Below the pieces are notes generated by a model. The model was not told where the DNA came from. It did not search any database and saw only the letters and a list, made by a program, of their open reading frames with translations. Shown here piece after piece: positions 1,241 to 28,792 of a stretch of DNA of 64,000 nucleotides (the first letter of the stretch is position 1; every line of letters starts with the position of its first letter). This stretch comes from Cohnella herbarum (GTDB taxonomy: Bacteria > Bacillota > Bacilli > Paenibacillales > Paenibacillaceae): contig NZ_CP051680.1 of assembly GCF_012849095.1 (NCBI RefSeq), forward strand, positions 5,890,001 to 5,954,000, written 5' to 3'. The translations under genes were made by a program, and so were the position numbers.

Positions 1241-1244
1241 GGCG

Positions 1245-1715: not shown

Positions 1716-1808
1716 CGGCCTTCCTCCTTGCCTTAATCCCATTTTTCGCCATTTTACCATAATCGAAGCCTCTTCACATCGCCGTAGTTCGTGCTTTGAC
1801 GGATTTTC

Positions 1809-2837: not shown

Positions 2838-2868
2838 TGCGATACCTCCGATTTACGGACTTTCACGG

Positions 2869-3747: not shown

Positions 3748-3760
3748 GATTCCTGCCGGT

Positions 3761-4600: not shown

Positions 4601-4629
4601 TCCAATGACCTCCAAACCTTCGTAGGGTT

Positions 4630-5670: not shown

Positions 5671-5719
5671 TACCGTAACCTCCTTGGTTTGCCATGCGCC
5701 GTTTTCCGTCAGAAAAACA

Positions 5720-5760
5720 CCGGGAAAGCCTTGTCTCGCGTTGAAGCAAGGCTTTCCCGG
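5720..5760 (-). terminator. Terminator after the solute-binding protein gene
   Basis: A 14-bp perfect stem (CCGGGAAAGCCTTG and its complement) is followed on the minus strand by a GTTTTTC tract. It lies between the solute-binding protein gene and the epimerase gene. It may end most transcripts while letting some read on into the catabolic genes. Confidence 0.85.
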
Positions 5761-5790
5761 CGTATTCCCATCCGAATGAACGATCGATTA

Positions 5791-7377
5791 TTATTTCAAA
5801 GTATTGTTATAAATCTCGAGAAGCTTAGTAACGCCTTTGTCGTTGATTTCCTTCACGTAACCGTCCCAATCCTTCTCCACGGTAGACTTACCATAGATAA
5901 ATTGCTCTTGGGATCTCATGAAGAAGTCGTGTACGGTCGTGCTTCTCATCGTTTCTTCTTCCTTGTCGGCCGGGGTCAGCTTAGGCACCTTCGCAACGGA
6001 AGGGAACCAATTCTTAGCGTTGGCTTCCGCGGTCAATGAATCGACTAACGGGTTGTTCAACACCTTGGAGAACCAATCGTACGTAAATACGGTCGTGAAG
6101 TTGTTGTTGGACGCGCCGACGTTCCATAACGCTTTCTGGATCATGCCGCTGCTTTTCACCGCTTCGGTGAATTCGCGGTTGCCGTCTTTCTCGACGAACG
6201 TTTCGTCTTGGATGCCCCAAGTACCGAGATTGATCGCTTCGTCGCTGTACAGCCAGTTTACGTATTCGAGCAATTTGTCGAAGTTCGGTTTCTTAGCCGC
6301 GCTTGCCGGAATGACGTAAGCGAAGTTGATGCGTTGAGCGGACGGTCCTTTGACGCCTCCGGGTCCGGCGATCGGAGGGAGCGGGGCAAGCTCGAAGTCG
6401 GGCGATACGTTCTTCTTGCCGTCGGCGTTAATCTGGCCGAGCTCGCTGATCCAAGTATAGGTAAACACGCTTTGTCCCGTGGCCATCTTCTGTTTCCATT
6501 GGTCCGTGCTGGAGGTGAAGATTTCCGGATCGGCCAATCCTTCCTTCATCAGGCGGCTTAAGAAGGCGACATACTGTTTGTAGTTATCGCTCGTATAGGC
6601 ATATTCGAACGCTTGTTTGTCGGAGTTATACAGGAATCCGTTGTATGCGGGCCCGATTCCCCAAGCCGCTCCCGACAGATTGATGAGTCCGAGCGCTCCG
6701 TTCAGGTTAGCCATCGGATAACCTTTCGGGTCGGCTTCTTTCAATTTCTTCAACACGTTATAGAGCTCGTCCATCGTTGTCGGGGCTTGCAGATTGTGTT
6801 TCTTGAGCAGATCGACGCGGATGACGGGAGCGGTATTGTACATCGCCGATTCGAACATGAACGGTAGACCGTACAGCTTGCCGTCCTTCAACGTCCAGTT
6901 GTCGATTTCCTCGGATATTTTATATTTTTCGAGCTTTTCCTTCAGGTTCGGCAGTTTGTCCATATAATCGCTGATCGGCAGGAATACTCCCGTTTGGGCG
7001 AATTCCATATAGACGGGATGCTCCACGTAACTGACGAGATCCGGGGCGGAGCCGGAGCTGAGCACGATCTTAAGTTTGTTCTGGTAATCCGCGTCCGGAG
7101 TAGGCTGGATGTCCAGCTTCACGTTCGCGAGTTTCTGGAACTGCTCGAGCACCGGCCAAGCCGCATTGTAGGGGTAAGAAGGATTGTCGTCGTACATCAT
7201 GGAGATGGTAATCGGCTCGTCGCCGCCTTTGCCCGCGGATGCCGCACCGCCGGTTTCCTTCGCGTTCGATCCTGAATTCGAGTCTGAGCATGCCGATAAG
7301 ATGGCGGTCATCGCCAGCGTTAACGCGAGTCCTCCGGCCAGCCACTTGCTTTTCTTTACGCCTTGTACCTCTTTCAT
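5791..7377 (-). CDS. ABC transporter extracellular solute-binding lipoprotein (LplA-like)
   Basis: Carbohydrate-binding lipoprotein of 528 residues that delivers ligand to the two permeases encoded upstream. The N-terminus has a basic region, a hydrophobic core and a lipobox (AILSAC), followed by a Ser/Asn/Gly-rich linker. The length fits the LplA/YtcQ group, which binds oligosaccharides. The start at 7377 (MKEVQG) has GGGAGG about ten bases upstream; the frame could open at 7416, but that would lengthen the signal peptide without a ribosome binding site. No ATPase gene is present, so a shared MsmX-type ATPase is expected. Confidence 0.9.
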   Translation of the reverse strand: MKEVQGVKKSKWLAGGLALTLAMTAILSACSDSNSGSNAKETGGAASAGKGGDEPITISMMYDDNPSYPYNAAWPVLEQFQKLANVKLDIQPTPDADYQNKLKIVLSSGSAPDLVSYVEHPVYMEFAQTGVFLPISDYMDKLPNLKEKLEKYKISEEIDNWTLKDGKLYGLPFMFESAMYNTAPVIRVDLLKKHNLQAPTTMDELYNVLKKLKEADPKGYPMANLNGALGLINLSGAAWGIGPAYNGFLYNSDKQAFEYAYTSDNYKQYVAFLSRLMKEGLADPEIFTSSTDQWKQKMATGQSVFTYTWISELGQINADGKKNVSPDFELAPLPPIAGPGGVKGPSAQRINFAYVIPASAAKKPNFDKLLEYVNWLYSDEAINLGTWGIQDETFVEKDGNREFTEAVKSSGMIQKALWNVGASNNNFTTVFTYDWFSKVLNNPLVDSLTAEANAKNWFPSVAKVPKLTPADKEEETMRSTTVHDFFMRSQEQFIYGKSTVEKDWDGYVKEINDKGVTKLLEIYNNTLK

Positions 7378-7454
7378 AGTGCAACTGCCTCCCTTGTGTT
7401 GGTATAAATCTATCATAAAAGCTGTTCAGGCTGGGCCTGCGAGAGTAACGGAAA

Positions 7455-8333
7455 TCAGCCCTTCACGGAACCGAGCATGACTCCCTTGGCAAAATACTTC
7501 TGGGTAAACGGGAAAATGAGCATAATAGGCAACGTGGTCGACATAATGGCCGCCGCCTTGAGAGAAGCCGAAGAGATGTTATTCCCGGTGTCGCCGACTT
7601 GGCCGACGTTGCCCGCCAGATCGGATCCGGCAATGATATTGCGAACGATCATCATGACCGGATGTTTATCCGTGCTGTTCAAGTAGATCATGGAGTTAAA
7701 CCAGTTGTTCCAGTAATACACGACGAGGAACAACGTAATGGCCGCCAGAATCGGTTTGGAGAGCGGAAGGATGATCTGCGCGAGAATGCGAAACGGATTC
7801 AAGCCGTCCAGCATGGCGGATTCTTCGATTTCCTCGGGAATCCCTTGGAAGTAGGTCATCATCAGCAGCAAGTAATAAGGCGTGATGCTGAAGGGGAGAA
7901 CGATGGCCCAGATAGTGTCGATCAGACCCAAGCTTTTGACAAGCATGTAAGTCGGGATAAGTCCGCCGCTGAAGAACATCGTGAACATGATGAACAGAAT
8001 GAGCAGCTTCCGGCCTTTCAACGCTCTCTTGGATAACGGATAAGCGCAGATCGTTAGCATGAATAGGCCGATCGCGGTTCCGAGAGCCGTCTGAATAACG
8101 GAGTTCTTAAAGCCGGCCAGAATGCTAGGATGTTGAAAGACGCGAAAGTAAGAGTCCAAGTTAAAGCCTTGGGGCCATAAGCCGACTTTGCCTCCCACTA
8201 CGGCATTTGATTCGCTCAATGACACCGACAGTAGATGCAAGAACGGGACAAGGATAGAGGCCGCAAGGAGGAGCATTACGACCGAATTGAAAGCCATGAA
8301 CCATTTGAAGCCGCTAGAACGGCGGTACAGCAT
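7455..8333 (-). CDS. Carbohydrate ABC transporter permease (LplC/YtcP-like)
   Basis: Inner-membrane permease of the MalG/CUT1 class, 292 residues, with six hydrophobic segments. The EAA-type ATPase-docking loop is visible (EEIEESAMLDGLNPFRI), and the C-terminus ends in GVMLGSVKG, typical of LplC proteins. AAGGAGG precedes the ATG at 8333. It pairs with the permease at 8515-9417, but a repeat element of about 145 bp is inserted between the two permease genes. It forms the membrane channel with that partner. Confidence 0.93.
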   Translation of the reverse strand: MLYRRSSGFKWFMAFNSVVMLLLAASILVPFLHLLSVSLSESNAVVGGKVGLWPQGFNLDSYFRVFQHPSILAGFKNSVIQTALGTAIGLFMLTICAYPLSKRALKGRKLLILFIMFTMFFSGGLIPTYMLVKSLGLIDTIWAIVLPFSITPYYLLLMMTYFQGIPEEIEESAMLDGLNPFRILAQIILPLSKPILAAITLFLVVYYWNNWFNSMIYLNSTDKHPVMMIVRNIIAGSDLAGNVGQVGDTGNNISSASLKAAAIMSTTLPIMLIFPFTQKYFAKGVMLGSVKG

Positions 8334-8356
8334 TTATTTTCCTCCTTCTAGAGGGA

Positions 8357-8501
8357 GTTCATAAAGTCGTCTTTTGATCCGAAGTTATGCAAGGAGCGGA
8401 TTCGACATCGAATCTTGAATCCAACCTTCCCGGAAACATGGTCGAGCAGTTCCGTCAGGCGAACGACCAGCCTCGGTGCTGAAAAAGCTGACTTTTTGAA
8501 C
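8357..8501 (-). repeat. Intergenic repeat element, copy A (terminal inverted repeats)
   Basis: About 145 bp. It begins and ends with near-complementary ends (GTTCATAAAGTC at one side, GACTTTTTGAAC at the other). On the minus strand its start (GTTCAAAAAGTCAG), the block TTCAAGATTCGATGTCG and its end match the element at 60951-61118, which lies in the opposite orientation. It is non-coding and sits between two permease genes of one operon. The matching ends and internal blocks make this a dispersed repeat of MITE or structured-RNA type. I believe similar elements are common in Paenibacillaceae, but that is from memory. Confidence 0.8.
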
Positions 8502-8514
8502 TCTCATTTTTTGA

Positions 8515-9417
8515 TTAGTACAAAGAAAAGCCGGATATTTTTCTAGAGATATAGTTGCCCGCCGATACGAGCATGAGCCCGATCAATCCGCCGAATAAGC
8601 CGACGGCCGTCGCATAGCTGTAATTGTTGTTCTGCAAGCCCATCCGGAAGACGAAAGTATCGATAATGTCGCTTGTCGTGGAATTGCTCGGCGTATAGAG
8701 CAGCAATACTTTCTCGAAACCGAGCGTAAGCATGGAGCCGAGCGAGATGATGAGCACGACGGATATCGTCGGCAGAATTTGCGGAATCGTCACGCTGAAC
8801 GTTTGACGCCATCTTCCCGCGCCGTCCATTTCGGCGGCTTCGTACAGTTGGGTGTCGACCGATGCTAACGCCGCGGTATAGATGATCGCGTTCCAGCCCA
8901 TGAACTGCCAAATGTCCGACGAAATGTAGATCGCGCGGAACCAGCCCGGTTCGTTCACGAAGAAGATCGGATCGATTCCGAACTGTCCAAGGAAGGAATT
9001 CACGATTCCATTCGTCGGCGAGAGAATTTCCTTCAGTATTCCCACGACGACGACGACCGCGACGAAGTTAGGGAAATAAGAGATCGTCTGGATGATCGTC
9101 TTGAGCTTCTTATTCAGAATTTCGTTCAGTAGCAGAGCGAACAGAATAGGAAGCGTGAACGTGATGGCCAGATTCAGGACGCTGAGCAGGATCGAATTCT
9201 GGAAAGCCGCCCAGAAGGTCGGGTCGTTCCAGAACATCTTGAAGTATCGAAGCCCGGCCCATTCCTCCCCGTACATCGAGCCGCCGGGTACGTATTTACG
9301 AAAGGCGAGCACGTTGCCTACGATCGGTCCGTATCTGAAAATAAGGAAATACGCGATCGGCAGCACGAGCATGAGATAGTAGTGATTGTAGCGTTTGAAG
9401 TAGGGACTCACCCGCAT
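8515..9417 (-). CDS. Carbohydrate ABC transporter permease (LplB-like)
   Basis: MalF/CUT1-class permease of 300 residues and six membrane segments. The EAA loop reads YEAAEMDGAGRWRQ. The start at 9417 (MRVSPYFKRY) has AAGGAGG with six-base spacing; the frame extends to 9483 but without a better start. It is the first gene of the minus-strand importer operon (LplB-like, LplC-like, binding protein). Its promoter should lie in the 230-bp gap shared with the divergent AraC regulator. Confidence 0.92.
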   Translation of the reverse strand: MRVSPYFKRYNHYYLMLVLPIAYFLIFRYGPIVGNVLAFRKYVPGGSMYGEEWAGLRYFKMFWNDPTFWAAFQNSILLSVLNLAITFTLPILFALLLNEILNKKLKTIIQTISYFPNFVAVVVVVGILKEILSPTNGIVNSFLGQFGIDPIFFVNEPGWFRAIYISSDIWQFMGWNAIIYTAALASVDTQLYEAAEMDGAGRWRQTFSVTIPQILPTISVVLIISLGSMLTLGFEKVLLLYTPSNSTTSDIIDTFVFRMGLQNNNYSYATAVGLFGGLIGLMLVSAGNYISRKISGFSLY

Positions 9418-9649
9418 AACCAACCTCCTTCGGTTTTGTCTTCCCTTATCCAAACACATCCGAAAGCGGCTTCCTACGGCCAATCTCGCTCCGATGTCAC
9501 ACGATTCTACTTCCCGGAAGTCACAAAAACGGACAATGTAACACTTTTCTACCTATTTGGATTAGCGGCGGATGAGGTTATTGACGGCGCGCGGCGTACA
9601 TAATACCCTTTGTTTCTAGGCTCTGTTTATTGAAAGGGGGGAAATGTGC

Positions 9650-11983
9650 ATGGGGCGGTTGGCGAATATGTGGAGAGTAAGCTTCCGGAGCATTTTCTTC
9701 CGTTTCATTATTTTGTTCGTTTCGATTTCCGTGCTCATTCAAATCATTAATTTCGTGACCTATAACGTGTATCTCCAATACGTTCAAACCCGAATCGAAA
9801 GAAATTACGACAGTTCGCTTTCCAACGTGGCCGCTTCGCTTAACCATCTGTTCGAGGGTATTTACCAATCCAACTTTTTGCTTTCGCTCGATCCGAGCGT
9901 TCTAAGCGTTTTCTCCGGGGAAGGGGATGCCGAGGGAACGGCCAAGTACGCAGATATTAGCCAAAGCGTTCGCTCTTTGGCGCGGATTAAATACATCGAC
10001 TCCTCTATCGACAGCGCCTATATCTTTAAACGCAAAGACGATTTGATCATCAGCAACGAGGGGACTTACTCGGCATCCTACTTCTATGACAAAGTGTATC
10101 GTTTCGAGGAGTACCCGGCCGAATTCTGGAAAACGCATAGCTCGGGTTACAAGCTGTTCTCCATATTGCCTCCATCGCAGACCAGCGGATCGGAACGTAA
10201 TGAAGGCAAGGTCATTATTCCTATCGTTCAATCGAAGATCGCCGAGTACTGGTCCAACAATCTGTACGTGATCAATCTGAATGCCCAATACATCGTCCGA
10301 CTGCTGCAAGATTACAAGCTCACGCCGGGCAGCGTGTTGTTCATCGCCGACAAGAACGGGACCATGCTCGCTTCGTCGGAGCCGGATTTCGTTCGCAATC
10401 CGGAGTTGCAGGCTTTCATGGGCAGCCTTCTCGAAGCTCCCGATTCCAAATCGCAAGCGGTTTATAAAAAACAAAAAATGAGGGTCGTCACCCTCAATAC
10501 GAATTTCTTCTATAACGACGTCGTCATGATTGCCGGGGTACCCGAGAACGACATCCGCAGCAGTCTGAGCAATATGGAGAAACTAAGATGGGTTTCGGCG
10601 ATCTTCACGCTGCTGCTCAGCTTGATTCTGTCCGTTGCCTTCAGCAAAAACCTGTACGCGCCGATTAAGTCGCTCGTCGATCGCCTGAACGGACCTCAGA
10701 CGAAAGGCAAACGCTCCATGAACGAATTCGAATATTTGAACGACGAAATCGGACGAATCATGAACAACGTGCAAACGCTGAATCAGCAGCTTTCCTATGC
10801 GCTCCCGCTCGCGAACGAGCAATTTTTGGTGAAAATGCTGAAATACAATTACCTATACGACGACGTCAGCGTGGAGGCCTACCAGAAGAACGGCAGCTTC
10901 TCGTTCGAGAACGATCATTTCATGATCGCCTTGTTCCAGTTCAACTTTCGCAAGCCGTTCTATGATTCCTTCAACGAATCGTTTCAGAACGATTCGTCGA
11001 GAATGCTAACGAAATTGCTGACGTCCTTGCTGCCGATGGACTATCCTTGTTACTTGCTGGAGATGGATTCGCATTTGTTCTGCTTGTTGGTGAACGTTCC
11101 CGAAGGGGCCGATCAAGTGTTATATCAAAAGTATTGCGAGGATATCGTGGAACTGTTCCGCAAGGACGAGGACTTCCTGAGGGTTCATGCGGGCATCGGA
11201 AGCGTGCGCAGAGGATATAAGGGCATGCGGCAATCGTACATCGAAGCGATGAAGGCGCTCTGGCGCATCTCGCCGTTCGACGGGAAACGGGTCTATACTT
11301 TCACCGAAGCGGACAATGAGCACGACGTAACGAGATACTTGTTAAGCAAGGAGGACGAGAACCGATTGTTCAATCTTCTTCTGTCCGGCAAGAAAGAGGA
11401 ACTGCACGGTCTGTTGAAGCAGATTATCGGCCACAATTTGTCCGCCGGGATCACCGCCCCGTTACTTCGCGAATTGTATATGAGGTTCTACATGATAGGG
11501 CTTCAGGTTCTGAAGCAGCGGGACAGGGAGCTGGACGGAGAAATCGGCAAATCGTATACGGGCTTCATCTTGTCCAACGAGTCTCCTTCCGTCGACGAGA
11601 TTACGGAATCGATCTTCGCTTACTTCGAGAATGTCGCGACCGTCTGCGGCGAGAGCCAGGACAAGTTCGACGTCGGGTCGTTCAAAGCGTTCATTAGCCA
11701 GCACTATCACGAGGATATCCATCTTGAGATGTTGGCCGAGAAATATAACACCTCCGCGCAATATATGTCCCGGTTGCTTAAGAGAGAGCTCGGGGTAGGC
11801 TTTCAGGAATACCTGCTCGATCTTAGAATCCGCAAAGCGAAAGAACTGCTGGCCCAATCCGAGCGGAAGATCGGCGACATCTGGGAGGCCGTCGGCTTTA
11901 ACAACCGGAATACGTTCATCCGCGCGTTCAAGGGGAAAGAGGGCATTACTCCGAGCGAGTATCGCAGCAATATGAGCAAGTGA
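9650..11983 (+). CDS. Membrane-bound AraC family regulator with extracellular sensor
   Basis: Protein of 777 residues with a membrane segment near residues 13-35, an extracytoplasmic cache-like sensor region, a second membrane segment near 308-330, a cytoplasmic linker and a C-terminal AraC double helix-turn-helix (roughly 675-775, ending GFNNRNTFIRAFKGKEGITPSEYR). This architecture is known for regulators that sit beside LplABC importers and sense the transported sugar or its binding protein. Start 9650 is chosen over 9644 because AAGGGGGG ends eight bases before it. It is divergent from the importer operon, which is its likely target. Confidence 0.9.
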   Translation: MGRLANMWRVSFRSIFFRFIILFVSISVLIQIINFVTYNVYLQYVQTRIERNYDSSLSNVAASLNHLFEGIYQSNFLLSLDPSVLSVFSGEGDAEGTAKYADISQSVRSLARIKYIDSSIDSAYIFKRKDDLIISNEGTYSASYFYDKVYRFEEYPAEFWKTHSSGYKLFSILPPSQTSGSERNEGKVIIPIVQSKIAEYWSNNLYVINLNAQYIVRLLQDYKLTPGSVLFIADKNGTMLASSEPDFVRNPELQAFMGSLLEAPDSKSQAVYKKQKMRVVTLNTNFFYNDVVMIAGVPENDIRSSLSNMEKLRWVSAIFTLLLSLILSVAFSKNLYAPIKSLVDRLNGPQTKGKRSMNEFEYLNDEIGRIMNNVQTLNQQLSYALPLANEQFLVKMLKYNYLYDDVSVEAYQKNGSFSFENDHFMIALFQFNFRKPFYDSFNESFQNDSSRMLTKLLTSLLPMDYPCYLLEMDSHLFCLLVNVPEGADQVLYQKYCEDIVELFRKDEDFLRVHAGIGSVRRGYKGMRQSYIEAMKALWRISPFDGKRVYTFTEADNEHDVTRYLLSKEDENRLFNLLLSGKKEELHGLLKQIIGHNLSAGITAPLLRELYMRFYMIGLQVLKQRDRELDGEIGKSYTGFILSNESPSVDEITESIFAYFENVATVCGESQDKFDVGSFKAFISQHYHEDIHLEMLAEKYNTSAQYMSRLLKRELGVGFQEYLLDLRIRKAKELLAQSERKIGDIWEAVGFNNRNTFIRAFKGKEGITPSEYRSNMSK

Positions 11984-18260: not shown

Positions 18261-18334
18261 ATAACGTTACAGGATCACTTTATTCCAGCTCAACCGGCTC
18301 CGACAAGGGCAATAACGTTACGGCATAACGCTAT
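18261..18334. repeat. AACGTT-rich intergenic repeat, copy 1
   Basis: This 74-bp unit opens with ATAACGTTAC, continues GGATCACTTTATTCCAGCTC and ends with ATAACGCTAT. It is clearly related to the unit at 18374-18448. It contains palindromic AACGTT cores at each end. It lies in a 329-bp gene-free stretch (18186-18514) in which nothing else is seen. Confidence 0.75.
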
Positions 18335-18373
18335 TTGCCTCGGTGAGGAGCGATTCGAGTCAGCTGCTCAGAG

Positions 18374-18448
18374 TTAACGTTATGGGATCACTCTATTGCA
18401 GCTCATCCGACCCCGACAACGACCAATAACGTTACTGGATAACGTTAT
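18374..18448. repeat. AACGTT-rich intergenic repeat, copy 2
   Basis: Same unit as copy 1: TTAACGTTAT, GGATCACTCTATTGCAGCTC, then AATAACGTTACTGGATAACG. Differences from copy 1 are scattered point changes. The two copies are direct repeats about 112 bp apart. Confidence 0.75.
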
Positions 18449-18514: not shown

Positions 18515-18901
18515 TTATTCCCCCGGGAAGGAGAACGCGACTTCATGAACGCTGAGTTTGGCGCCGAGCATGATGCCCGAGCCCGGTTTCGGCTGTTCGC
18601 CATGGGCAGGCTGACCGCCGTGGCTAGGCTGTTCGCCGGCAGCGGCTCCTTCGGGCGGTTTCGGACGCGAGTGGGCGTGAGCCTGCTTAAACGCGTCGCT
18701 GTTCACCCATCCGTCGAATGCCTCGCGGCTTTCCCAAGTGGTGCAAACCTTGAGCTCGTCATGTTCCTCGCCGGCTTCGATCAGCAGCTCCATACGGACA
18801 AAACCGGGCGCATGCTGCACGCCCTTCGGGTTTTTGAATCTTTCGACGACTTCTCCAACGTGACCGGATTTGATTTTTATCGTATTGATCGCGACTATCA
18901 T
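18515..18901 (-). CDS. IsdG-family heme-degrading monooxygenase
   Basis: ABM-fold protein of 128 residues. The IsdG/IsdI catalytic triad is present: Asn6 (AINTIKI), Trp65 (DGWVNS) and His75 (FKQAHAH). These enzymes cut heme with a separate reductase, releasing iron. Between the His and the final beta strand (KLSVHEVAFSF) is an extra hydrophilic insertion of about 25 residues with GEQPxHG-like repeats, absent from the compact staphylococcal enzymes. GGAGG lies seven bases before the ATG at 18901. No heme transport gene is adjacent. Confidence 0.85.
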   Translation of the reverse strand: MIVAINTIKIKSGHVGEVVERFKNPKGVQHAPGFVRMELLIEAGEEHDELKVCTTWESREAFDGWVNSDAFKQAHAHSRPKPPEGAAAGEQPSHGGQPAHGEQPKPGSGIMLGAKLSVHEVAFSFPGE

Positions 18902-19064
18902 AGATATTCCTCCTTCAATGATTCTTCCTCTACTAGTGTATCAAAACTCGGGCGGAATCCGAAATGAAGGAGACGATCCAACTGACGATCACTAGATACC
19001 CTTATCCAACGAGGATCAAAAAGTTGCTCTTATCCAACGACGATCCAACGATGCTAGATTAACT

Positions 19065-20033
19065 TTATCCTTCCAATCTAACTCCGATGCCGAGCCGCTC
19101 CGCTTCCCGCCAATAATAGGCGGCGAGGGTCATGTCGAAAGCGGCCATGCCCATCGGGCTGAAGAAAATAGGCTCGGAGGCCGCGACGCCCTTCAAAGCC
19201 CCTCCGTATACGACATCCCGCAAAGTAACGGTATCGGCCTCGGTTAATCCCGTCTGCGTATGAAGCAGCTCGATATCGGTATTTTCGCGGCAAACCTCTT
19301 GCCAGTTATCGACGACGATAGTCTTGAGGGCGTGAAGGCTTTCCGGCAAATACTCGCGCAAAGAGATGTTCATGAGCAAGGAGCCCGGAGGAGGGAGTTC
19401 GTCGATAAAGCGGGTTGCCGAGGAAGTACAGGTGAAGACGATGTCGCTATTCCGGTAAACTTCTTGCCAATCGGAGGCAATGCGCGTCATAGCTTGCATT
19501 CGTGAATCTAGAGACGACGAATCAATGCCCTTAAGATCGAATAATCGCACGCCGTCCAGCCGGTCGCCATACAACGCTAACAGCATCTTCATATGCCGGC
19601 GCCCGATCGGGCCCCAGCCGATGATTCCGACTTTGTAGCTCCTCCGGCGTTCTAACGCGAAATAATGCCGAAGCATGACCGCGCTGACCGCTGCCGTCCG
19701 AAGCTCGCTGAGCACGCCGCCGACCAGAATCGCGATGGGCACTCCGTCGGCGGGATCGTTAAGGACGATCGTGCTGTGCGCGCGGGGTTTGCCGAGCGCT
19801 ACGTTACCCGGAAAGCTGGCGATCCACTTGATGCCGCTGATCTCCGTATCCCCGCCGACGAAGGAGGGCATGGCGATGATTCGGTTGGCGGGGTTTCTGA
19901 ACCGCAAATAGGGCTTTAGCGGCTGGACGACCTCCGGCGTATCCAACATTCGCAAGGTCGACTCTATTCGGTTGGTCAACAGAGACCAATCAATCCCGAT
20001 CCGGAGGATATGCCCGTTATTTAAGTAAATCAT
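19065..20033 (-). CDS. sbnB: SbnB-like N-((2S)-2-amino-2-carboxyethyl)-L-glutamate dehydrogenase
   Basis: Ornithine cyclodeaminase-family, NAD-dependent enzyme of 322 residues. In staphyloferrin B synthesis SbnB oxidatively hydrolyses the SbnA product to L-2,3-diaminopropionate and 2-oxoglutarate. The SbnB pattern is clear: start MIYLNNGHI, VQPLKPYLR, RIIAMPSFVGG, SGIKWIASFPGN, and NPMGMA-like SPMGMAAFDM near the end. Start 20033 is preferred by alignment with known SbnB and has AAGGGCGGG upstream. A longer start overlapping the sbnA stop (ATGATGA at 20054-20049) is possible. It is coupled to sbnA. Confidence 0.9.
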   Translation of the reverse strand: MIYLNNGHILRIGIDWSLLTNRIESTLRMLDTPEVVQPLKPYLRFRNPANRIIAMPSFVGGDTEISGIKWIASFPGNVALGKPRAHSTIVLNDPADGVPIAILVGGVLSELRTAAVSAVMLRHYFALERRRSYKVGIIGWGPIGRRHMKMLLALYGDRLDGVRLFDLKGIDSSSLDSRMQAMTRIASDWQEVYRNSDIVFTCTSSATRFIDELPPPGSLLMNISLREYLPESLHALKTIVVDNWQEVCRENTDIELLHTQTGLTEADTVTLRDVVYGGALKGVAASEPIFFSPMGMAAFDMTLAAYYWREAERLGIGVRLEG

Positions 20034-20050
20034 TTTCGGCCCGCCCTTCA

Positions 20051-21019
20051 TCATGCGCCAGTGACATGCCGCTGCACCCATTCCTCGTCATATACCGTAT
20101 CCATGTAACGATCACCGCGGTCAGGAAGGATAGCCGCGCATACGGCGCCATCCGGAATGTCATCGCGCATGGCCCGAATAGCGGCAATAACGCCGCCCGA
20201 AGAAGCGCCGGCCATGATCGACTCTTGCCGAACGAGATCCAAGCAGCCTTCGATACACTCCCGTTCCGACACGTAGATGACGCGGTCGATCAATTCTTTG
20301 CGATTGATGGAAGGAGGAAGCGCCGCGCCTAAACCCGGGAACTGTCGAGGCCCCTTCATCCCGCCGAATATGACGCTCCCCTGAGCGTCGACGGCGATAA
20401 TCCGCGTGGGCAGCCCGCTATCCTTAAGTCTCTCCGCGCAGCCCCTTATCGTTCCGCACGAGCTGACTCCGCAGAACAAATAATCGACCTGAGACAGCTG
20501 CTCCAGAATTTCCGGCATCGTCGTCTCGTAATGCGCCCTATAGTTGTTCGGGTTGCCGTACTGGTTCGTCCAATAACAGTTTCCGATTTGCTGCCGAAGT
20601 TCTTGAACACGTTGAATACGGGCCGGCAAATAATCTCCGCTGACCGGATCCGGATGTTCGACTCTCTCGATTTCTCCGTTCAAACATCGAATCAATCTCA
20701 GATGAGCCTCCGTTGTCCTAGGGTCGACGACGCAGATGAAGCGCAAGCCCAAATAGTTGCAGATTTGAGCCAAGCTTAACGCCATATTGCCGGAGCTGGA
20801 TTCGATGACGGTCGTGTCGCGAAGGATTTCCCCCGATCGGATCGCTTCGCGGACGATGAACAAGGCCGGGCGATCCTTCGCGCTTCCGCCGGGATTCATC
20901 ATCTCGAGCTTGCCGTACACCTGGTAGGGCTCATCTTGAAACAAGCGACGAAGAGGAACGAGAGGCGTGCGGCCGATTGTCCGGCACATCCCGTCCATAA
21001 TGCCCATATCCGTGGCCAT
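20051..21019 (-). CDS. sbnA: SbnA-like N-(2-amino-2-carboxyethyl)-L-glutamate synthase
   Basis: PLP-dependent beta-replacement enzyme of the cysteine synthase fold, 322 residues. SbnA joins O-phosphoserine and glutamate. The PLP lysine lies in NPGGSAKDRPA (Lys48), the phosphate loop is SSSGNMA, and SbnA-specific runs VVDPRT, VAVDAQGSVIFG-like IIAVDAQGSVIFG and ILPDRGDRYMD are present. It lies between an adenylate-forming ligase gene and sbnB, with the stop of the ligase 17 bases upstream. No siderophore synthetase (SbnC/E/F type) is in the window, so the diaminopropionate may enter another product. Confidence 0.92.
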   Translation of the reverse strand: MATDMGIMDGMCRTIGRTPLVPLRRLFQDEPYQVYGKLEMMNPGGSAKDRPALFIVREAIRSGEILRDTTVIESSSGNMALSLAQICNYLGLRFICVVDPRTTEAHLRLIRCLNGEIERVEHPDPVSGDYLPARIQRVQELRQQIGNCYWTNQYGNPNNYRAHYETTMPEILEQLSQVDYLFCGVSSCGTIRGCAERLKDSGLPTRIIAVDAQGSVIFGGMKGPRQFPGLGAALPPSINRKELIDRVIYVSERECIEGCLDLVRQESIMAGASSGGVIAAIRAMRDDIPDGAVCAAILPDRGDRYMDTVYDEEWVQRHVTGA

Positions 21020-21036
21020 AAGTCAGAGTTCTCCCC

Positions 21037-22257
21037 TCAGTCGTAGAAAATTCTCTTGTGTTTCAGGACGCGAGCGTCGTAGGAAATCTCCGACGGAACG
21101 ACGCGTATAGCGTGAAGCAGCCCGCCTCTGATCATAATGCCGATCTCCGGTATACGATCCTGCAATTCCAATTCGATACGCTCATAGATTTCCGGAGTCT
21201 TGTCCTTGCTATCGATATGCACCGTTAGGGCGTTGGACTGAACATGGACGCGCACGGTCGCCTCCTTCAAGTGGCGGTACACGACGTCCTCGATATCGTA
21301 GACGCTTATTTTCTCTCCGTGCTTCAGTTCCGTGCCGATTCGCCTGACGATGGCTTGGAAGCTCATCCGGCTTTGCCCCTTCACGACGATCGGACGTAAA
21401 TCCCGCACGATGTCGTACGTCACGTAGCGGATCGCGGGAAATAGATCGCGAGCCCAAGAAGTTAATACGAGCACGGATTCGTTCTCTGGAAGGGGCTCGA
21501 TATCGTCGTACAAAGCCTGAGCCGGGATTCCTTCCGCCTCAATGCCTTCGGCGAAGAGATACCTTCCGTGTTCATGCGAATAGTACGCGATCGTGCCGAT
21601 CTCGATCGAGCCGTAAGTGTCGGTAATGCTCTCCGGCGCTAGCCACAGGCGTTCGGCAACGCTTCGAAGCCACGCCGGGGATGCGATCTCTCCGACGAGC
21701 ACCACCTGTCGAATGCCGTAGGAGGAGGGATCCTCCGCGGAGGCGGCCAAAATACGATCGAGGATGGATGGCATCGTATATAGGAGTTGGGGACGTAGCG
21801 TTCTCAGCCGTTCTAGATGCTCTTCGATCGGTTGCTGGAAAGCGATCGTATCTACTTTGATGCCGATGCGATCGAAGGTTTCCGGGGCGGTGCTGGCCGC
21901 GTGGCCCGTACCCATATCGGATAACGCGGTAGTTATGCCGAACGGCGCGATAATCCGGTTAAAAAGCCCGCTTTTGATCCGAATATACCGGCGTTCGTCC
22001 TCCGCGGAGTAGTAAATGGTTTTCCGGCGCCTTGAGCTCGTTCCGGAGGTACGGTAACACGTCATGTTGTCCCGGGGCTCGAAGGGCGGCCCGGATTGAT
22101 AATAATAACGTTCCAGCATCTCGGACGTCATTAAAGGTAGCAGTTGCAGCGATTGCGCCGTCCGGATATCCGCGCCTTCCGCCGCGAGCATCCGGGCGTA
22201 CCAAGGGAAGACGTCGAGAACTTGCCGAATTTTCCGCGTAAGCCGATCTTCGCGCAC
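21037..22257 (-). CDS. PaaK-like adenylate-forming ligase
   Basis: AMP-forming ligase of the phenylacetate-CoA ligase / coenzyme F390 synthetase type, 406 residues. The P-loop reads CYRTSGTSSRRRK, and later motifs DTYGSIEIG and AIRYVTYDIVRDL match the adenylation fold with its C-terminal lid. GTG at 22257 is preferred because GGAGG lies eight bases before it; the ATG at 22272 has no ribosome binding site. It is the first gene of a tight operon with sbnA and sbnB. It may activate an acid for coupling to diaminopropionate, which is an inference from context. Confidence 0.8.
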   Translation of the reverse strand: MREDRLTRKIRQVLDVFPWYARMLAAEGADIRTAQSLQLLPLMTSEMLERYYYQSGPPFEPRDNMTCYRTSGTSSRRRKTIYYSAEDERRYIRIKSGLFNRIIAPFGITTALSDMGTGHAASTAPETFDRIGIKVDTIAFQQPIEEHLERLRTLRPQLLYTMPSILDRILAASAEDPSSYGIRQVVLVGEIASPAWLRSVAERLWLAPESITDTYGSIEIGTIAYYSHEHGRYLFAEGIEAEGIPAQALYDDIEPLPENESVLVLTSWARDLFPAIRYVTYDIVRDLRPIVVKGQSRMSFQAIVRRIGTELKHGEKISVYDIEDVVYRHLKEATVRVHVQSNALTVHIDSKDKTPEIYERIELELQDRIPEIGIMIRGGLLHAIRVVPSEISYDARVLKHKRIFYD

Positions 22258-22417
22258 GCGATCTCCCTCCATTCTAGCCGTCTAAGGATGTTATTCATTT
22301 ATATGTACGGGATCCAAGCAGGTTCTTCTTTTGCGGGTAGACAACAGCCCTTCCTTATTGTGCGGATAGCCATACAGTATGCTATGAGCCATACCAATTC
22401 TGCCAAGAGAGGAACGG

Positions 22418-23206
22418 GTGATACGAATGAGTAATGAGACCGCGGTGTCCAGCAAGTGGATTAAGACCAAGGTGTTAGCCGGGGATCCCGCGTTAGCCGC
22501 CCATATTCCCGCTACCCGGCGTCTGACGCAAGGAACGCTGATGGCATCGTTGAACCGCTATCGAATGGTTTACGTCAAGCCGGTGTCGGGGTCCCTTGGA
22601 ATCGGGGTTATGCGCATCGATCGAACCGGCGCAGGCTGGACCGTTCAGGCGGGGATGAGTCGGCGTTCGTTCGCCACCTTCGGCGCCATGTACCGTTGGC
22701 TGTTTCCTCGGATGGGCAGGAAGGAGTATCTCGTACAGAGAGGTATTCACGTCTTGAGGCATAACGGCAGACCGATCGATTTCCGAGTCATGATCCAAAA
22801 GGGGCGAAAGGTCGGATGGAAAGTTACGGGGACGGCAGCTCGAGTAGCGCATCCCGGCAAGGCGGTGACGAACGGGAGTCAAGGAGGAAGCATTCACGGC
22901 GCGCGATCGTTGCTGCGGCGGACGGTCGGTCCGAAGACGACCTTGCGCTTGCTCAAGAAGTTTAACCGCTTGGCGTACTCAACGGCACGCCGGTTCACGC
23001 TGGCTTATCCCGGAATGAGAGAGCTGGGGTTGGATATCGCCGTGGATCGCAAGCATCGAGCGTGGATTCTCGAAGTGAATACGAGACCCGATCCTTGTCC
23101 GTTCACGAAACTTGACGATCCATCGATGATTCGGAATATCGTGAGATTCGCCCGCGGCTACGGGCGAACCTATCGGTTGACATGTAATAAAGCCAAGCGC
23201 GGATAG
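22418..23206 (+). CDS. YheC/YheD-like ATP-grasp protein
   Basis: Basic protein of 262 residues resembling the ATP-grasp part of YheC/YheD, known in Bacillus as spore coat-associated. ATP-grasp features are KPVSGSLGIGVMRI, the central RPIDFRVMIQK and the metal-site end WILEVNTRPDP. It is shorter than the Bacillus proteins and lacks their N-terminal part. GTG at 22418 (AGAGAGG five bases upstream) and ATG at 22427 are both possible starts. It is divergent from the diaminopropionate operon. A ligase role with that pathway is conceivable, but a spore role is the default. Confidence 0.75.
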   Translation: MIRMSNETAVSSKWIKTKVLAGDPALAAHIPATRRLTQGTLMASLNRYRMVYVKPVSGSLGIGVMRIDRTGAGWTVQAGMSRRSFATFGAMYRWLFPRMGRKEYLVQRGIHVLRHNGRPIDFRVMIQKGRKVGWKVTGTAARVAHPGKAVTNGSQGGSIHGARSLLRRTVGPKTTLRLLKKFNRLAYSTARRFTLAYPGMRELGLDIAVDRKHRAWILEVNTRPDPCPFTKLDDPSMIRNIVRFARGYGRTYRLTCNKAKRG

Positions 23207-23287
23207 GTTCATGAAATGCAAGGAACCTGAACCGCGTTTCTTCCGTAATAGAATAGGGTAAGCTATTGAATGAGGGAGGAACGCGTA

Positions 23288-23686
23288 ATGAACTGTCCGG
23301 TATGCGAAGGAACTCGTATGAGAGAAGTAGAGAAGAACGGAATTCTGATCGATATCTGCCCTAGCTGCAAGGGGGTATGGCTCGATCGGGGAGAATTGGA
23401 CAAGTTGATGGAAGAGGTCAAGGAAGTCCGCCAAGACTATAACGAATGGTACTACGGGGACTCTACTAAACAGGAAGCGCCGAGAGCCGCGCAACCGCCT
23501 CAGCAGAACTACCAGCAGCCTCAGCAGAATTACCCGCCTCAACAACAGAATTATCAGCAGCCTCAACAGGGTTACCCACCGCAACAGCAATACTCGCAGC
23601 ATGGTCATCACGGCCATTCCCAATATCCGAAATATAAGAAAAAGAAAAGCATGATGGATGTTTTCGGCGACTTGTTTGGCGATTGA
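23288..23686 (+). CDS. Zinc-ribbon (zf-TFIIB) protein with Gln/Pro repeat region
   Basis: Small protein of 132 residues. The N-terminal TFIIB-like zinc ribbon has two CxxC knuckles (NCPVCEG and ICPSCKG) followed by WLDRGELDKL. The middle is a low-complexity region with repeats of QQNYQQPQ / YPPQQ type, then a His-rich stretch and a basic C-terminal tail. Start 23288 has GGGAGGA seven bases upstream. Function is unknown; nucleic-acid binding is suggested by the ribbon only. It shares its terminator with the convergent HAD gene. Confidence 0.85.
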   Translation: MNCPVCEGTRMREVEKNGILIDICPSCKGVWLDRGELDKLMEEVKEVRQDYNEWYYGDSTKQEAPRAAQPPQQNYQQPQQNYPPQQQNYQQPQQGYPPQQQYSQHGHHGHSQYPKYKKKKSMMDVFGDLFGD

Positions 23687-23700
23687 TTTCGTGAATAAAT

Positions 23701-23743
23701 AAAAACTGCCTCCGCAATTCGCGGGAGGCGGTTTTTATTTTGC
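23701..23743. terminator. Bidirectional terminator
   Basis: AAAACTGCCTCCGC pairs, with one wobble, with GCGGGAGGCGGTTTT, flanked by A-rich and T-rich tracts, so it can end both the zinc-ribbon gene and the minus-strand glpP operon. Confidence 0.88.
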
Positions 23744-23760
23744 AATCCGCAAGAACGCTG

Positions 23761-24588
23761 CTATACTCGATAATCGGAGTATTCCCGTTCGGATAACAAT
23801 AACTCGTACAATTCCGATAGCTTGCCGACGGTAAAGGTAGGTTTAATCGGCAGGCGGTCTTGTAAGTCCGAACCGGATTGACGAATCCATACCGATTTCA
23901 TCCCGATCCGATCAGCGCCCGCGATATCCGTAGCGAGATTATCTCCGACCATGACGCATTCCGAAGGGGTAAGCTTATAGGCTCTCATGGCTAATTCGTA
24001 CAAGCAATTGTCGGGTTTGCCGATACTCTTAACGGAGGAGCCCACAATCGACTCGATAGCAGCCATTAGGGAACCGGTCTCCGGGATCACTCTTCCGTCT
24101 TCGCCGGGATGCGAACGATCCGCGTTCGTACTGAGAAGCCGGGCGCCGCGGAAAGATTCGTCCACGATCCGCTGAAGCCGTCGGTAATCGAATTCGGTAT
24201 CCCTTCCAATGACGATGGTATCCGCGATTTCCCGCGCTTCCCATTCAAGAAGCCGATGTCCTTGGCCGGCAATCGCTCTTCGCAAGCTCTCGCTCCCCGC
24301 GACTTTAACGTTTACGCGTCCATATCGTTCGGTCAAATAGCTAGCCACGGCTTCGGTTGCGTTAACGATTTGTTCGTCGTTCAAGCGCAGGCCCATTCCG
24401 GATAGCTTTCGGCCTATTTCGGCGGCGTCTTCTCTGGAATTGTTCGTGATGAACCCGATTCGGATGCCGCCGGATCGAAGCAATTCCAGTAATTCGTTCG
24501 CGCGTTCGGCTAGCTTCCGGCCATAATAGATACAGCCGTCCAGGTCGAAAAACAACGCCTTCGTATTTTTCTCGATTACGCGATTCAT
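23761..24588 (-). CDS. HAD-IIA family phosphatase
   Basis: Haloacid-dehalogenase-type hydrolase of 275 residues, subfamily IIA (NagD / AraL / PGP type). Motif I is FFDLDGCIY, motif II FITNN, motif III around SIGKPDN and motif IV VGDNLATDI. Some HAD-IIA enzymes dephosphorylate glycerol-3-phosphate or sugar phosphates. Start 24588 has GGAG seven bases upstream. It is the last gene of the operon headed by glpP, so a glycerol-3-phosphate phosphatase role is an attractive but unproved inference. A purely housekeeping phosphate-repair role is the alternative. Confidence 0.87.
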   Translation of the reverse strand: MNRVIEKNTKALFFDLDGCIYYGRKLAERANELLELLRSGGIRIGFITNNSREDAAEIGRKLSGMGLRLNDEQIVNATEAVASYLTERYGRVNVKVAGSESLRRAIAGQGHRLLEWEAREIADTIVIGRDTEFDYRRLQRIVDESFRGARLLSTNADRSHPGEDGRVIPETGSLMAAIESIVGSSVKSIGKPDNCLYELAMRAYKLTPSECVMVGDNLATDIAGADRIGMKSVWIRQSGSDLQDRLPIKPTFTVGKLSELYELLLSEREYSDYRV

Positions 24589-24602
24589 CGGCAAACTCCA
24601 TT

Positions 24603-25601: not shown

Positions 25602-26915
25602 TTAAGATTGAACTAGCGAATTCGCTTGTTTGGCAGCTTCCTTCATCGCTTCTTCGGGCGATTTCTGGCCTTGCAATGCCGCTTGAATCTGATCGGCGAT
25701 GATCTTCTGCACGCGGGTACCGCCTGTGCCCGGAAAGTTAAACCAAGGTACCATGGTCTCCAACTGTCCGTATGTCGCTTTGTAGTACGGTTTCTCCTCC
25801 AGGAATTTCTGCAAGTCGGGATCTTCGTACGCGCTGACGCGGCTGACCATATAACCGGTGGAGGTCGAAATTTGAACCGAACGCTTCGCGTCCGTTAAAT
25901 ACTTGATAAAGTCCCAAGCCGCTTCTTGTTTTGCCTTATCTATCGTGAAAATCATGAGATTAGAGCCGCCGGCCGGAACGACTTGCTTACCTTGGTAGGT
26001 AGGGAAGGGTGCGGTTCTCAGATCGTATTTGGCGGTTGGCGCAATCATTCCAAGACCGGCGGTCGTATGCACGAGCATCCCGATGTCGCCTTTAGCCATC
26101 GACTCGAAAGGCTGGGTTCCTTGCAGCAACGGCATGGACTTGTCCTTCGTTACCATATCGACGATCGTTTGAACCGCTTTAATGCTGGCTTCGGAGTCTA
26201 GTCCAACCGACTTGCCGTCCGCGGACATCATCCTTCCGCCGTAAGTCTCCATTAACGCTTGGTACAGCCAGCCGAAATCGATCGCCATATTGACGCCGAA
26301 ATGTCCATTCCGAGTCAGCTTCTTCGCGATTTCGGGGAGCTCTTCCCAAGTTTGCGGAGGCGAATCGGGATTCAAACCCGCATCGCGGAATTGATCCGCA
26401 TTGTAATAGAGCACAGGGGTGCTGATCCCGAAAGGAAACCCGATCTGTTGCCCATGCCCATTCTTACCCAGATTCAGCATGCTCGGATAGAAGTCGGAAG
26501 TATCGTATTTCTCTTGCTTGATGAAAGTATCCAGCGGGACGGCGTGAATCGTTTCCGATGCGAACCGGGTATACAGTAACCCGTTCGTGACGACATCCGG
26601 CAATTTTTTGGCCGCCGCCTGAACTTGAAGTTTCTCGACGATTCCTTCGTAACTGTTCTGAACGAAGACGCTTTTGACCCTGACTTTGTTCTGCGAACTG
26701 TTGTAGGCGTCGACGAGCGATTTCGATAAGTCCGCGTTAAGAATATTCCAGAATTCGATCTCGACCGGTCCGCCGTTGGTCGGTTCGGTTGCCTCTGATG
26801 AAGCTGACGTTGACGGGGCAGAACCACCGCCGGCATTGTCCGCCTTTGCTCCGCACGCCGTCAAAGCGATACACAAGATAAGCAATAACCCTGATTTCAT
26901 CCAAGCTTTGTTCAT
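25602..26915 (-). CDS. ABC transporter solute-binding lipoprotein (UgpB-like)
   Basis: Lipoprotein of 437 residues with lipobox LTAC (Cys21) and a short Ser/Thr linker. It has the cluster-1 sugar/glycerophosphate binding protein fold (EFWNILNADLSK at the start of the mature domain, TGYMVSR near the end). GAGGAG precedes the ATG. Operon membership behind glpP points to glycerol-3-phosphate or glycerophosphodiesters as ligand, as for UgpB, rather than to a sugar. Ligand identity is inferred. Confidence 0.87.
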   Translation of the reverse strand: MNKAWMKSGLLLILCIALTACGAKADNAGGGSAPSTSASSEATEPTNGGPVEIEFWNILNADLSKSLVDAYNSSQNKVRVKSVFVQNSYEGIVEKLQVQAAAKKLPDVVTNGLLYTRFASETIHAVPLDTFIKQEKYDTSDFYPSMLNLGKNGHGQQIGFPFGISTPVLYYNADQFRDAGLNPDSPPQTWEELPEIAKKLTRNGHFGVNMAIDFGWLYQALMETYGGRMMSADGKSVGLDSEASIKAVQTIVDMVTKDKSMPLLQGTQPFESMAKGDIGMLVHTTAGLGMIAPTAKYDLRTAPFPTYQGKQVVPAGGSNLMIFTIDKAKQEAAWDFIKYLTDAKRSVQISTSTGYMVSRVSAYEDPDLQKFLEEKPYYKATYGQLETMVPWFNFPGTGGTRVQKIIADQIQAALQGQKSPEEAMKEAAKQANSLVQS

Positions 26916-26964
26916 TTTGATTTCTCCTCTTTCTTTGGATTTATATATTATTCAAAGCAGCTAG

Positions 26965-27792
26965 CTAACCTTTAACGCCGCTTTGAGCGAATCCGTCAAC
27001 AATGTAACGCTGGGCGATCAGGTAGAGGATCAGCACCGGGATCATAGATAAGGTAGCGAGCGCCATGGTGGCCCCCCATTCCATCTGGGTTTCGCTTCGG
27101 AAATATTGAAAGGCGAGCGGCAAAGGCATTTTCTCCGAGTCCGTCAGAACGAGCAGAGGCCAGTTGAATTCGTTGAAGTTGCTTAAGAACGAAAGAACTC
27201 CCAAAGTCCACAGAATCGTTCCGGACAGCCTAACATACACGTTCCACATGACCCGAAGGGGGCCGCATCCATCTATCGTAGCCGCTTCCGCCAACTCCTT
27301 CGGCAGGGTCAGGAACGATTGACGAAGCAGGAAGATCACGAAACCGCTAGCCAGATGCGGCACGATGACTCCGGAAAAAGTATTCAGCGCGTTCATCTGG
27401 TTCACGATGAGATAAGTCGGGACTAGCGTGACTTGCATCGGGATCATCATCGTCATGAGCACGAACAGGAACAGAATGTCGCGCCCCGGAAAACGGTAAT
27501 AGGCGAAAGCGAATGCGGCGCACGCCCCGATAAATAATTGTCCAAGCGTCTGCAATACGCCGATTCTCAAGCTGTTCGCCAGCCAATCGAAGAACGGGAT
27601 GTCCCATAGCGCCTTTTTGTACCCATCCCAATGGATCGGGCCCGTCCAGAGCAAGTGACCAGAGAAGACGTATTCCTCCGAACGCAAGGAGATCGAGATC
27701 ATCCAGAAGATCGGAAGCAGAACCAAGCCTACCAGGCCGAGAAGCAGCAGTTGCTTAACCGTTTCCTCGGTCAGTTTGCGGTATCGAATCAT
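26965..27792 (-). CDS. ABC transporter permease (UgpE-like)
   Basis: MalG/UgpE-class permease of 275 residues with six membrane segments. The ATPase-docking loop reads ELAEAATIDGCGPLR and the C-terminus GFAQSGVKG. GGAGG is eight bases before the ATG. It works with the permease at 27816-28706 and the lipoprotein downstream. No ATPase gene is in the operon, so a shared MsmX/UgpC-type ATPase encoded elsewhere is expected. Confidence 0.9.
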   Translation of the reverse strand: MIRYRKLTEETVKQLLLLGLVGLVLLPIFWMISISLRSEEYVFSGHLLWTGPIHWDGYKKALWDIPFFDWLANSLRIGVLQTLGQLFIGACAAFAFAYYRFPGRDILFLFVLMTMMIPMQVTLVPTYLIVNQMNALNTFSGVIVPHLASGFVIFLLRQSFLTLPKELAEAATIDGCGPLRVMWNVYVRLSGTILWTLGVLSFLSNFNEFNWPLLVLTDSEKMPLPLAFQYFRSETQMEWGATMALATLSMIPVLILYLIAQRYIVDGFAQSGVKG

Positions 27793-27815
27793 AGCGCGAG
27801 CCTCCTTGCGTCGAA

Positions 27816-28706
27816 TTAATAATGTACGAGTTTACGGGAAATTTTTAGCTGTACGACGGTTATGGCCAATACGATCAAGAACAGTAGAATGGAAATAGCG
27901 GCAGCCTTGCCTATACTGAAAAATTGAAAGGCTTCCTGGTATAGTTGATAGACCAGTACGTTCGACGAGTTGTTGGGACCGCCGCCCGTCATGATCTTGA
28001 TCAGCGCGAAGTTCTGAAACGAAGAAATCATACCCATGATGACGATGAACAAGGTGATAGGAGACAAGAGAGGCAGAGTGAGATGGACAAGTTTCCGTAA
28101 CCGCCCCGCTCCGTCGATGGAAGCCGCTTCGTATAGCCCTTTGTCAATCGCCTTCAAACCTGAAATATACAGGAGCATCTCGTAACCGAAGCTTTTCCAT
28201 ATTCCGACGATTGCGACCGCCCACAAGGAGGTCGAACTTTGGGACAACCAATTAGGGCCTTCGATACCGAACACGCTTAGCAGTTCATTAACGATGCCGT
28301 GCTGCTGGTCGTACATCATGCTCCATAGAATAGAGATAACGACAATCGACGAAACAACGGGAAGGTAGAACACGAATCGATAGAAAGCTCGTCCCCGCAT
28401 CAAGCTTTCCAGAATCAATGCCAGCAGGAAGCCTATTATCAACGATAAAGGCATAGTCATGAACATGTAGAGGAACGTATTCTTAAGCGACTTCCAGAAC
28501 ACTTCGTCCCGATTCAGCGATACGTAATTGTCCCAGCCGACGAACGGCTTATCCGGACCGATCATGTCCCAATGTTGGAAGCTTAAGATAAAGGTGAACG
28601 CAAACGGGTAAATGAAGAAAATCGCGTAAAGCGCGAGCGCGGGGGCAAGGAAGACGAAAGGCAAACCAATAGCCTTCCAGCGCGATCCTGTAAATAACTT
28701 AATCAT
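27816..28706 (-). CDS. ABC transporter permease (UgpA-like)
   Basis: MalF/UgpA-class permease of 296 residues, six membrane segments, EAA loop YEAASIDGAGRLRK. Start 28706 (MIKLFTG) is chosen because GGAGG lies eight bases upstream. The frame could extend to 28754, but that would run through the leader terminator hairpin. It is the first gene after glpP and is preceded by the hairpin at 28733-28792, so its transcription is probably controlled by antitermination. Confidence 0.9.
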   Translation of the reverse strand: MIKLFTGSRWKAIGLPFVFLAPALALYAIFFIYPFAFTFILSFQHWDMIGPDKPFVGWDNYVSLNRDEVFWKSLKNTFLYMFMTMPLSLIIGFLLALILESLMRGRAFYRFVFYLPVVSSIVVISILWSMMYDQQHGIVNELLSVFGIEGPNWLSQSSTSLWAVAIVGIWKSFGYEMLLYISGLKAIDKGLYEAASIDGAGRLRKLVHLTLPLLSPITLFIVIMGMISSFQNFALIKIMTGGGPNNSSNVLVYQLYQEAFQFFSIGKAAAISILLFLIVLAITVVQLKISRKLVHY

Positions 28707-28732
28707 TGAAGTTTCCTCCTCGGATATGATAA

Positions 28733-28792
28733 AAAGCTCCGAACAACAATACATACAGACACTGCGCCCGTATGATTGTCGTTCAGAGCTTT
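28733..28792 (-). promoter_or_regulatory. Leader terminator, likely GlpP antitermination target
   Basis: On the minus strand AAAGCTCTGAACGACAAT pairs over 18 bp (two G-U pairs) with a downstream arm ending in GAGCTTTTTATC. An inner CATAC/GTATG pair extends the stem. It lies between glpP and the UgpA-like gene, 14 bases before the latter's ribosome binding site. GlpP-controlled leaders in Bacillus have such a terminator in front of each target. The match is by position and fold, not by a proved GlpP sequence motif. Confidence 0.8.

Follow-up and report, generated by a model that had tools for sequence, protein, structure and literature searches.

In the 64,000-nucleotide stretch of the Cohnella herbarum genome analyzed here (assembly GCF_012849095.1, contig NZ_CP051680.1, positions 5,890,001 to 5,954,000 of the forward strand; "the window"), a tight minus-strand operon encodes a DdaG-like amide ligase followed by SbnA- and SbnB-type enzymes, with a YheC/YheD-type ATP-grasp gene divergent from it on the plus strand. 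On balance, we favor the view that these four genes form a small module, free of non-ribosomal peptide synthetases (NRPS) and built around L-2,3-diaminopropionate (Dap), which is driven by sigma-K, is active in the late mother cell and has a role in the spore rather than in iron uptake. It is a module of spore-forming Paenibacillaceae and some of their kin. Computation establishes the gene families, their linkage across genera, a ligase-SbnA fusion, a conserved upstream promoter motif and separateness from siderophore sbnAB genes. The operon and its divergent partner, already recognized in a first-pass annotation of the window, are borne out by coordinates, strands and family models (Table 1).

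The best NCBIfam match of the ligase is NF041596 (DdaG), at 274 bits (E 1.7e-81) and nearly full length, a model named for a fumarate--(S)-2,3-diaminopropanoate ligase; it also matches all 34 module ligases scanned. The window protein is 36.6% identical to Pantoea DdaG over 92%, and sequence comparison finds motifs common to both, but its score lies under the equivalog cut-off of 700 bits, making it DdaG-like rather than a filed DdaG. The first-pass annotation had called it PaaK-like, which is right for the fold and wrong for the sequence family: a PaaK-type CoA ligase was rejected, the PaaK model (TIGR02155) giving 23 bits against a cut-off of 646, and the closest family, DdaG, has a known reaction that matches the coupling of an activated acid to Dap guessed at that time. 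The SbnA-type protein scores 422.6 bits with TIGR03945 (cut-off 350) and aligns to S. aureus SbnA with E 4e-81; the best PDB match of the SbnB-type protein (E 1e-36) is 4m54, titled a putative ornithine cyclodeaminase, which we take to be S. aureus SbnB. The SbnA of S. aureus joins O-phosphoserine to glutamate, after which SbnB frees Dap together with 2-oxoglutarate; Dap is very probably made by the window pair as well. The ATP-grasp protein matches PF14398 at 200.5 bits (cut-off 26.8), with the Mg/ATP motif ELGLDIA..WILEVN intact and the metal ligands D206, E219, and N221 invariant in 33 aligned rows.

Table 1. Coordinates of the module in the window (position 1 is the first letter of the window)
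Feature	Position	Strand	Remarks
DdaG-like adenylate-forming amide ligase (LIG)	21037..22257	(-)	~406 amino acids; 411 amino acids from ATG 22272
SbnA-type pyridoxal phosphate (PLP) synthase, first step to L-2,3-diaminopropionate	20051..21019	(-)	TIGR03945, S. aureus SbnA 5d84 alignment
SbnB-type dehydrogenase, second step to diaminopropionate	19065..20081	(-)	probable start near 20033
Divergent YheC/YheD-type ATP-grasp ligase (GRASP)	22427..23206	(+)	259 amino acids; 262 amino acids from GTG 22418
Sigma-K-like operon promoter	22302..22325	(-)	GAAC 22325-22322, 16-bp spacer, CATA 22305-22302

The ligase start adopted is a GTG behind GGAGG, the ATG upstream being an alternative, and only 17 bp separate ligase and SbnA. 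The SbnA and SbnB open reading frames (ORFs) overlap by 31 bp if the first ATG of SbnB is taken; since the alignment with S. aureus SbnB begins at residue 16, translation may really start further in, at MIYLNN. The ATP-grasp ORF spans 22418-23206, with the tabulated start the likely one. In 13 of the 26 fetched loci of one genus, ligase and SbnA are fused in a single ORF of 734-943 amino acids, these being all the fusions among the 100 fetched loci described below; in a further genus (g434), frames of 765 and 832 amino acids that stay open over the ligase suggest the same fusion in two genomes.

A ligase match is found in 157 of 394 genomes of the family, including 30 of the 37 members of the genus, and wider sampling gave 37/119 genomes in the order, 11/398 in the class and 2/398 across the phylum. 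From the 157 ligase-positive family genomes, 100 loci were fetched, one per genome and covering 11 genera; they were picked among the matches listed so as to spread over genera, the lowest-scoring matches not being included, and no pair is near-identical over 4 kb. Another 34 named loci, at least 12 of them the same as fetched ones, were not added, and G003 and G022 were looked at separately; in G022, ligase and SbnA are each spread over more than one frame. A gene was scored as present on its tblastn match, by which some broken-frame copies (such as SbnA in L066) count as present; the ORF-based table is without a ligase in L080, L081, L131, and L148, where longer overlapping ORFs were chosen, and tblastn finds all four.

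On this scoring, a divergent ATP-grasp gene lies within 700 bp of the ligase in 99 of the 100 genomes, and at ~900 bp (898 bp), also divergent, in L131. Both SbnA and SbnB follow the ligase, within 4.5 kb of its start, in 93; of the other seven loci, six have no SbnB in place and one (L144) is cut by a contig end. When neighboring ORFs of at least 100 amino acids, within about 6 kb, were clustered, the four module families appeared in 11/11 genera and no fifth family in more than 4/11: the flanks change from locus to locus while the four genes stay. A second sample, drawn from other families through the class and order sampling, comprised 20 loci, of which four were dropped (L258 and L260, identical to L053 and L059, and L250 and L256, 98% and 93% identical to earlier ones). 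The remaining 16 have a divergent ATP-grasp gene in every case, all four genes in 13 and the promoter motif in 12 (20/20, 15/20, and 13/20 before the exclusions); its independence is not complete, since some Paenibacillus loci among the 34 named ones above seem to belong to these families. The four-gene neighborhood that the first-pass annotation proposed searching for is thus a recurrent one, and ligase and ATP-grasp genes are conserved with sbnAB in both samples; a lack of such conservation, one of two outcomes that the first-pass annotation had set against its reading, did not occur.

Five of the six genomes without SbnB at the locus carry one of 41-47% identity elsewhere; the sixth, G063, has only an SbnB of 33% identity elsewhere, which falls with the siderophore SbnB in the tree. 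Loci L167-L171 (G280, G276, G277, G201, and G205) hold SbnB genes outside the module; judged by eye, that of G276 is grouped with an SbnA and an NRPS, and those of G201 and G205 adjoin another ATP-grasp gene.

The intergenic regions upstream of the ligase, 108 of them after redundancy was removed, share a promoter-like motif on which the first-pass annotation had not remarked. An unbiased count of spaced 3-mer/4-mer pairs puts GAA-N18-CATA (43) and AAC-N17-CATA (42) at the top, against about 1 expected. AC-N16/17-CATA occurs on the ligase strand of 96/108 regions (mean 9.6 and maximum 17 in 40 shuffles) and in the last 220 bases of 92/108, compared with 51/728 regions upstream of other ORFs within these loci; with the stricter AAC form the figures are 74/108 and 10/728. 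The gene dpaA, a sigma-K gene in B. subtilis, served as positive control: it is carried by 25/25 relatives, as expected of spore formers, and has the AC form in 20/25 upstream regions (counted by hand) and the AAC form in 3/25. Full-consensus scores on the ligase strand exceed the shuffled 95th percentile in 36/108 regions for sigma-K, 2 for sigma-E, 2 for sigma-G, and 0 for sigma-A, so that sigma-K alone is enriched and the other classes are at background. The ligase-upstream motif fits the sigma-K layout of a -35 element with AC, a spacer and a -10 CATA, given as KCACM, 14-16 bp, and GCATANNNTA in the relevant passages of PMC3416734 and PMC517825. Sigma-K control of the operon is therefore likely, and with such a promoter the product would most likely arise in the mother cell at a late stage of sporulation.

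Is this instead an iron-uptake locus? SbnA and SbnB are common to sbn clusters, and Dap is a staphyloferrin B building block according to the part of PMC3179956 that treats it, both of which suit a siderophore or metallophore pathway derived from that of staphyloferrin B. We rejected this possibility, which is close to refuted. The first-pass annotation had seen no siderophore synthetase, transporter or Fur box, an observation that stands: neither of the first two occurs among the seven genes scanned (18515-24594; the scan with family models covered these genes of the window only, and no search for synthetases was made in other parts of the window or genome), and the best match to the 7-1-7 Fur box consensus shows 5 mismatches in the intergenic region of the window and 4 within 18900-22450. 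Across the module intergenic regions the best matches have 4-7 mismatches, compared with 3-7 in shuffled sequence, and neither an IucA/IucC synthetase nor a transporter family is conserved with the module in the 100 loci.

Siderophore clusters are also not where SbnA is usually found in this genus. It scores above the family cut-off in 29/37 genomes, in 28 of which it adjoins the ligase (judged from coordinates by eye); the ligase-bearing G002 and G022 lack an SbnA above cut-off and carry lower-scoring or split copies at the locus. The remaining SbnA, in the ligase-free G018, lies in a staphyloferrin-B-like cluster (L216, G018:C1:1494000-1507000, at 158-8723) with SbnB, a major facilitator superfamily (MFS) protein, two IucA/IucC-FhuF proteins, and a Peripla_BP_2 protein. 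The first-pass annotation had named sbnAB pairs lying regularly in siderophore clusters as the other outcome that would speak against it; here that is the arrangement of one in 29. This cluster behaved as a positive control should: its Fur box is perfect (7-1-7, 0 mismatches), unlike anything in the module, and it shares with the module SbnA- and SbnB-type proteins, hence the supply of Dap, at 45% and 32% identity. In the SbnA and SbnB trees, the two siderophore rows of each stand on their own supported branch, and the module rows form one group with weak support (59/85 and 60/85). One genome, G1148, carries both the module and the siderophore kind of SbnA.

The closest known chemistry is that of the dapdiamides, which are made by a similar set of an SbnA-like enzyme, SbnB, DdaG, and the ATP-grasp ligase DdaF (in sections of PMC12568646 and PMC3179956). 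Like the Pantoea agglomerans pathway (DdaA, DdaB, DdaF, and DdaG), the module combines an SbnA-like/SbnB pair, a DdaG-family ligase and an ATP-grasp enzyme, and could form amide bonds without NRPS condensation. It differs in that no DdaC-type dioxygenase, DdaD carrier, hydrolase, DdaH-type asparagine synthase, or efflux gene is conserved with it: further Dda genes are absent from the seven window genes scanned and occur in no more than 4/11 genera within about 6 kb. Its ATP-grasp enzyme, of the YheC/YheD family, has ~260 amino acids and DdaF 424; the module, moreover, is kept across genera and has a sigma-K-like promoter.

The substrates and the order of steps that we infer are as follows. SbnA and SbnB would supply Dap; the DdaG-like ligase would adenylate a small carboxylic acid, with fumarate or a similar acid as the default guess, and couple it to Dap, whose acylation by this enzyme is probable. 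The ATP-grasp enzyme, very probably part of the pathway, would then make a second ATP-driven bond by way of an acyl phosphate, the partner being either a further small molecule or a protein or peptide. The sigma-K-type promoter would turn the operon on, yielding a product late in sporulation in the mother cell that would serve the spore as a coat component, a coat modification or a spore metabolite; that it ends up in or on the spore itself we suggest tentatively. More speculative is the idea, in our estimate somewhat less probable still, that the ATP-grasp enzyme ligates acyl-diaminopropionate onto a spore-coat or other spore protein, giving a previously undescribed spore modification or metabolite. 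Among small ORFs (20-120 amino acids) within 1.5 kb in the 100 loci, no candidate precursor peptide is common to more than two genera. Action on a protein target has analogies in the TTLL and RimK/LysX-type ATP-grasp ligases. The fungal E-64 pathway, with ATP-grasp Cp1B and ANL ligase Cp1D in the portion of PMC12568646 concerned with it, likewise pairs two standalone ATP-dependent amide-forming enzymes, but with different proteins, no Dap, and no link to sporulation.

The same kinship with the dapdiamide cluster, to which DdaG, SbnA-like, SbnB, and ATP-grasp proteins all belong, allows another outcome: a diffusible antibiotic or cell-to-cell signal of the dapdiamide type, set free as the mother cell dies and no part of the spore. 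Patchy presence suits such a specialized metabolite. We consider it unlikely, as no exporter, amidotransferase, dioxygenase, carrier, or other additional family reaches more than 4/11 genera, the same four genes are kept in many genera, and the promoter is of a late mother-cell type.

A different objection concerns the ATP-grasp gene, which might be an unrelated spore-coat protein gene that merely shares the intergenic region with an operon making acyl-Dap and nothing further. Ten places in the window's own genome match the YheC/YheD family, which would allow a chance neighbor; in G036, the ATP-grasp gene is present without the ligase; the promoter of the ATP-grasp gene cannot be assigned to a sigma class by its scores in the 108 regions (sigma-K-like above the shuffled 95th percentile in 8, other classes at background); and on the tree the module copies form no single supported clade apart from paralogues, so that their orthology rests on position and identity. 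We nevertheless regard the objection as quite improbable. The gene is divergent beside the ligase throughout both samples although the flanks change; the pair persists where SbnAB is not alongside (L058, L059, and L259); and a strong match tracks the ligase, at least 225 bits being reached in 29 of the 30 ligase-bearing genus members (the exception, G002, has a partial match beside the ligase), whereas six of the seven without ligase have only paralogue-level matches below 200 bits. Five matches to the family stand in a row elsewhere in the window's own genome (L175-L179, G000:C1:19089-24807).

The ATP-grasp promoter and G036 weigh against a sigma-K-driven spore module of the kind favored here, and so do several further points. 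The ligase's acid may differ from that of DdaG, given its 274 against 700 bits, and the window SbnB, at 305.3 bits, is just under the TIGR03944 cut-off of 326.9. The motif is missing from 12/108 regions and from four of the 16 new loci, and the window's own copy agrees only moderately with the strict B. subtilis consensus; another site there ranks higher by strict score, and the promoter case therefore rests on conservation. The patchy presence in 157 of 394 family genomes implies that the module is not core sporulation machinery. Ligase and ATP-grasp genes are also found without SbnAB alongside, in Thermoactinomycetaceae (L058-L060, of which L060 stops shortly past the ligase) and also in G922, in whose genome no SbnA above cut-off was found. 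The f162 genomes examined (G1131 and G1139) do have an SbnA above cut-off elsewhere; the L260 locus of G1139 is the one identical to L059, from Thermoactinomyces. These exceptions suggest that the core of the module is the ligase and ATP-grasp pair, with SbnAB as its usual source of Dap. In L058 and L059, around 7100-10150, the ligase is flanked by two YheC/YheD-type ATP-grasp genes.

Just downstream of the window's ATP-grasp gene, at 23270-23686, lies a gene for a TFIIB-type zinc-ribbon protein with a Q/P/Y-rich tail. A role as a LysW-like carrier was weighed and discarded, as only 2/11 genera have its family at this site, this genus (in part of its loci) and one more. A sugar-type ATP-binding cassette (ABC) transporter set was noted by eye at 25602-28754. 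Five TAACGTTA palindromes are packed into ~180 bp (18262-18447) between an ABC-F gene and an ABM monooxygenase gene, and two other copies occur elsewhere in the window.

The chemistry proposed is a known one, a variant of dapdiamide logic, and it is the setting that is apparently new. A search of open-access papers found nothing on the four-gene set, which does not show the module to be unpublished; the sbnA/sbnB pair of Paenibacillus sp. JDR-2 is listed, with product unknown, in the relevant part of PMC3179956. To our knowledge, YheC and YheD of B. subtilis lie in no known Dap operon. The module enzyme resembles them in belonging to PF14398, in its ATP-grasp fold and in its distribution among spore formers; they differ in regulation, the B. 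subtilis genes being sigma-E/SpoIIID dependent in the passage of PMC517825 that covers them and the module operon having a sigma-K-like promoter. YheD is a spore-shell (coat) protein of unknown function in the corresponding passage of PMC7911427.

For this genus, the results imply that an sbnA gene is mostly no sign of a siderophore (28 of 29), a point that bears on the automatic annotation of biosynthetic clusters. The sigma-K-like promoter shifts the pathway from iron or antibiotics toward sporulation. YheC/YheD-type proteins are numerous here, and with YheD located on the B. subtilis spore and without an assigned function, the module copy provides a concrete substrate hypothesis for them: if ligation of acyl-Dap to a spore protein proved true, it would be the first chemical role for the family.

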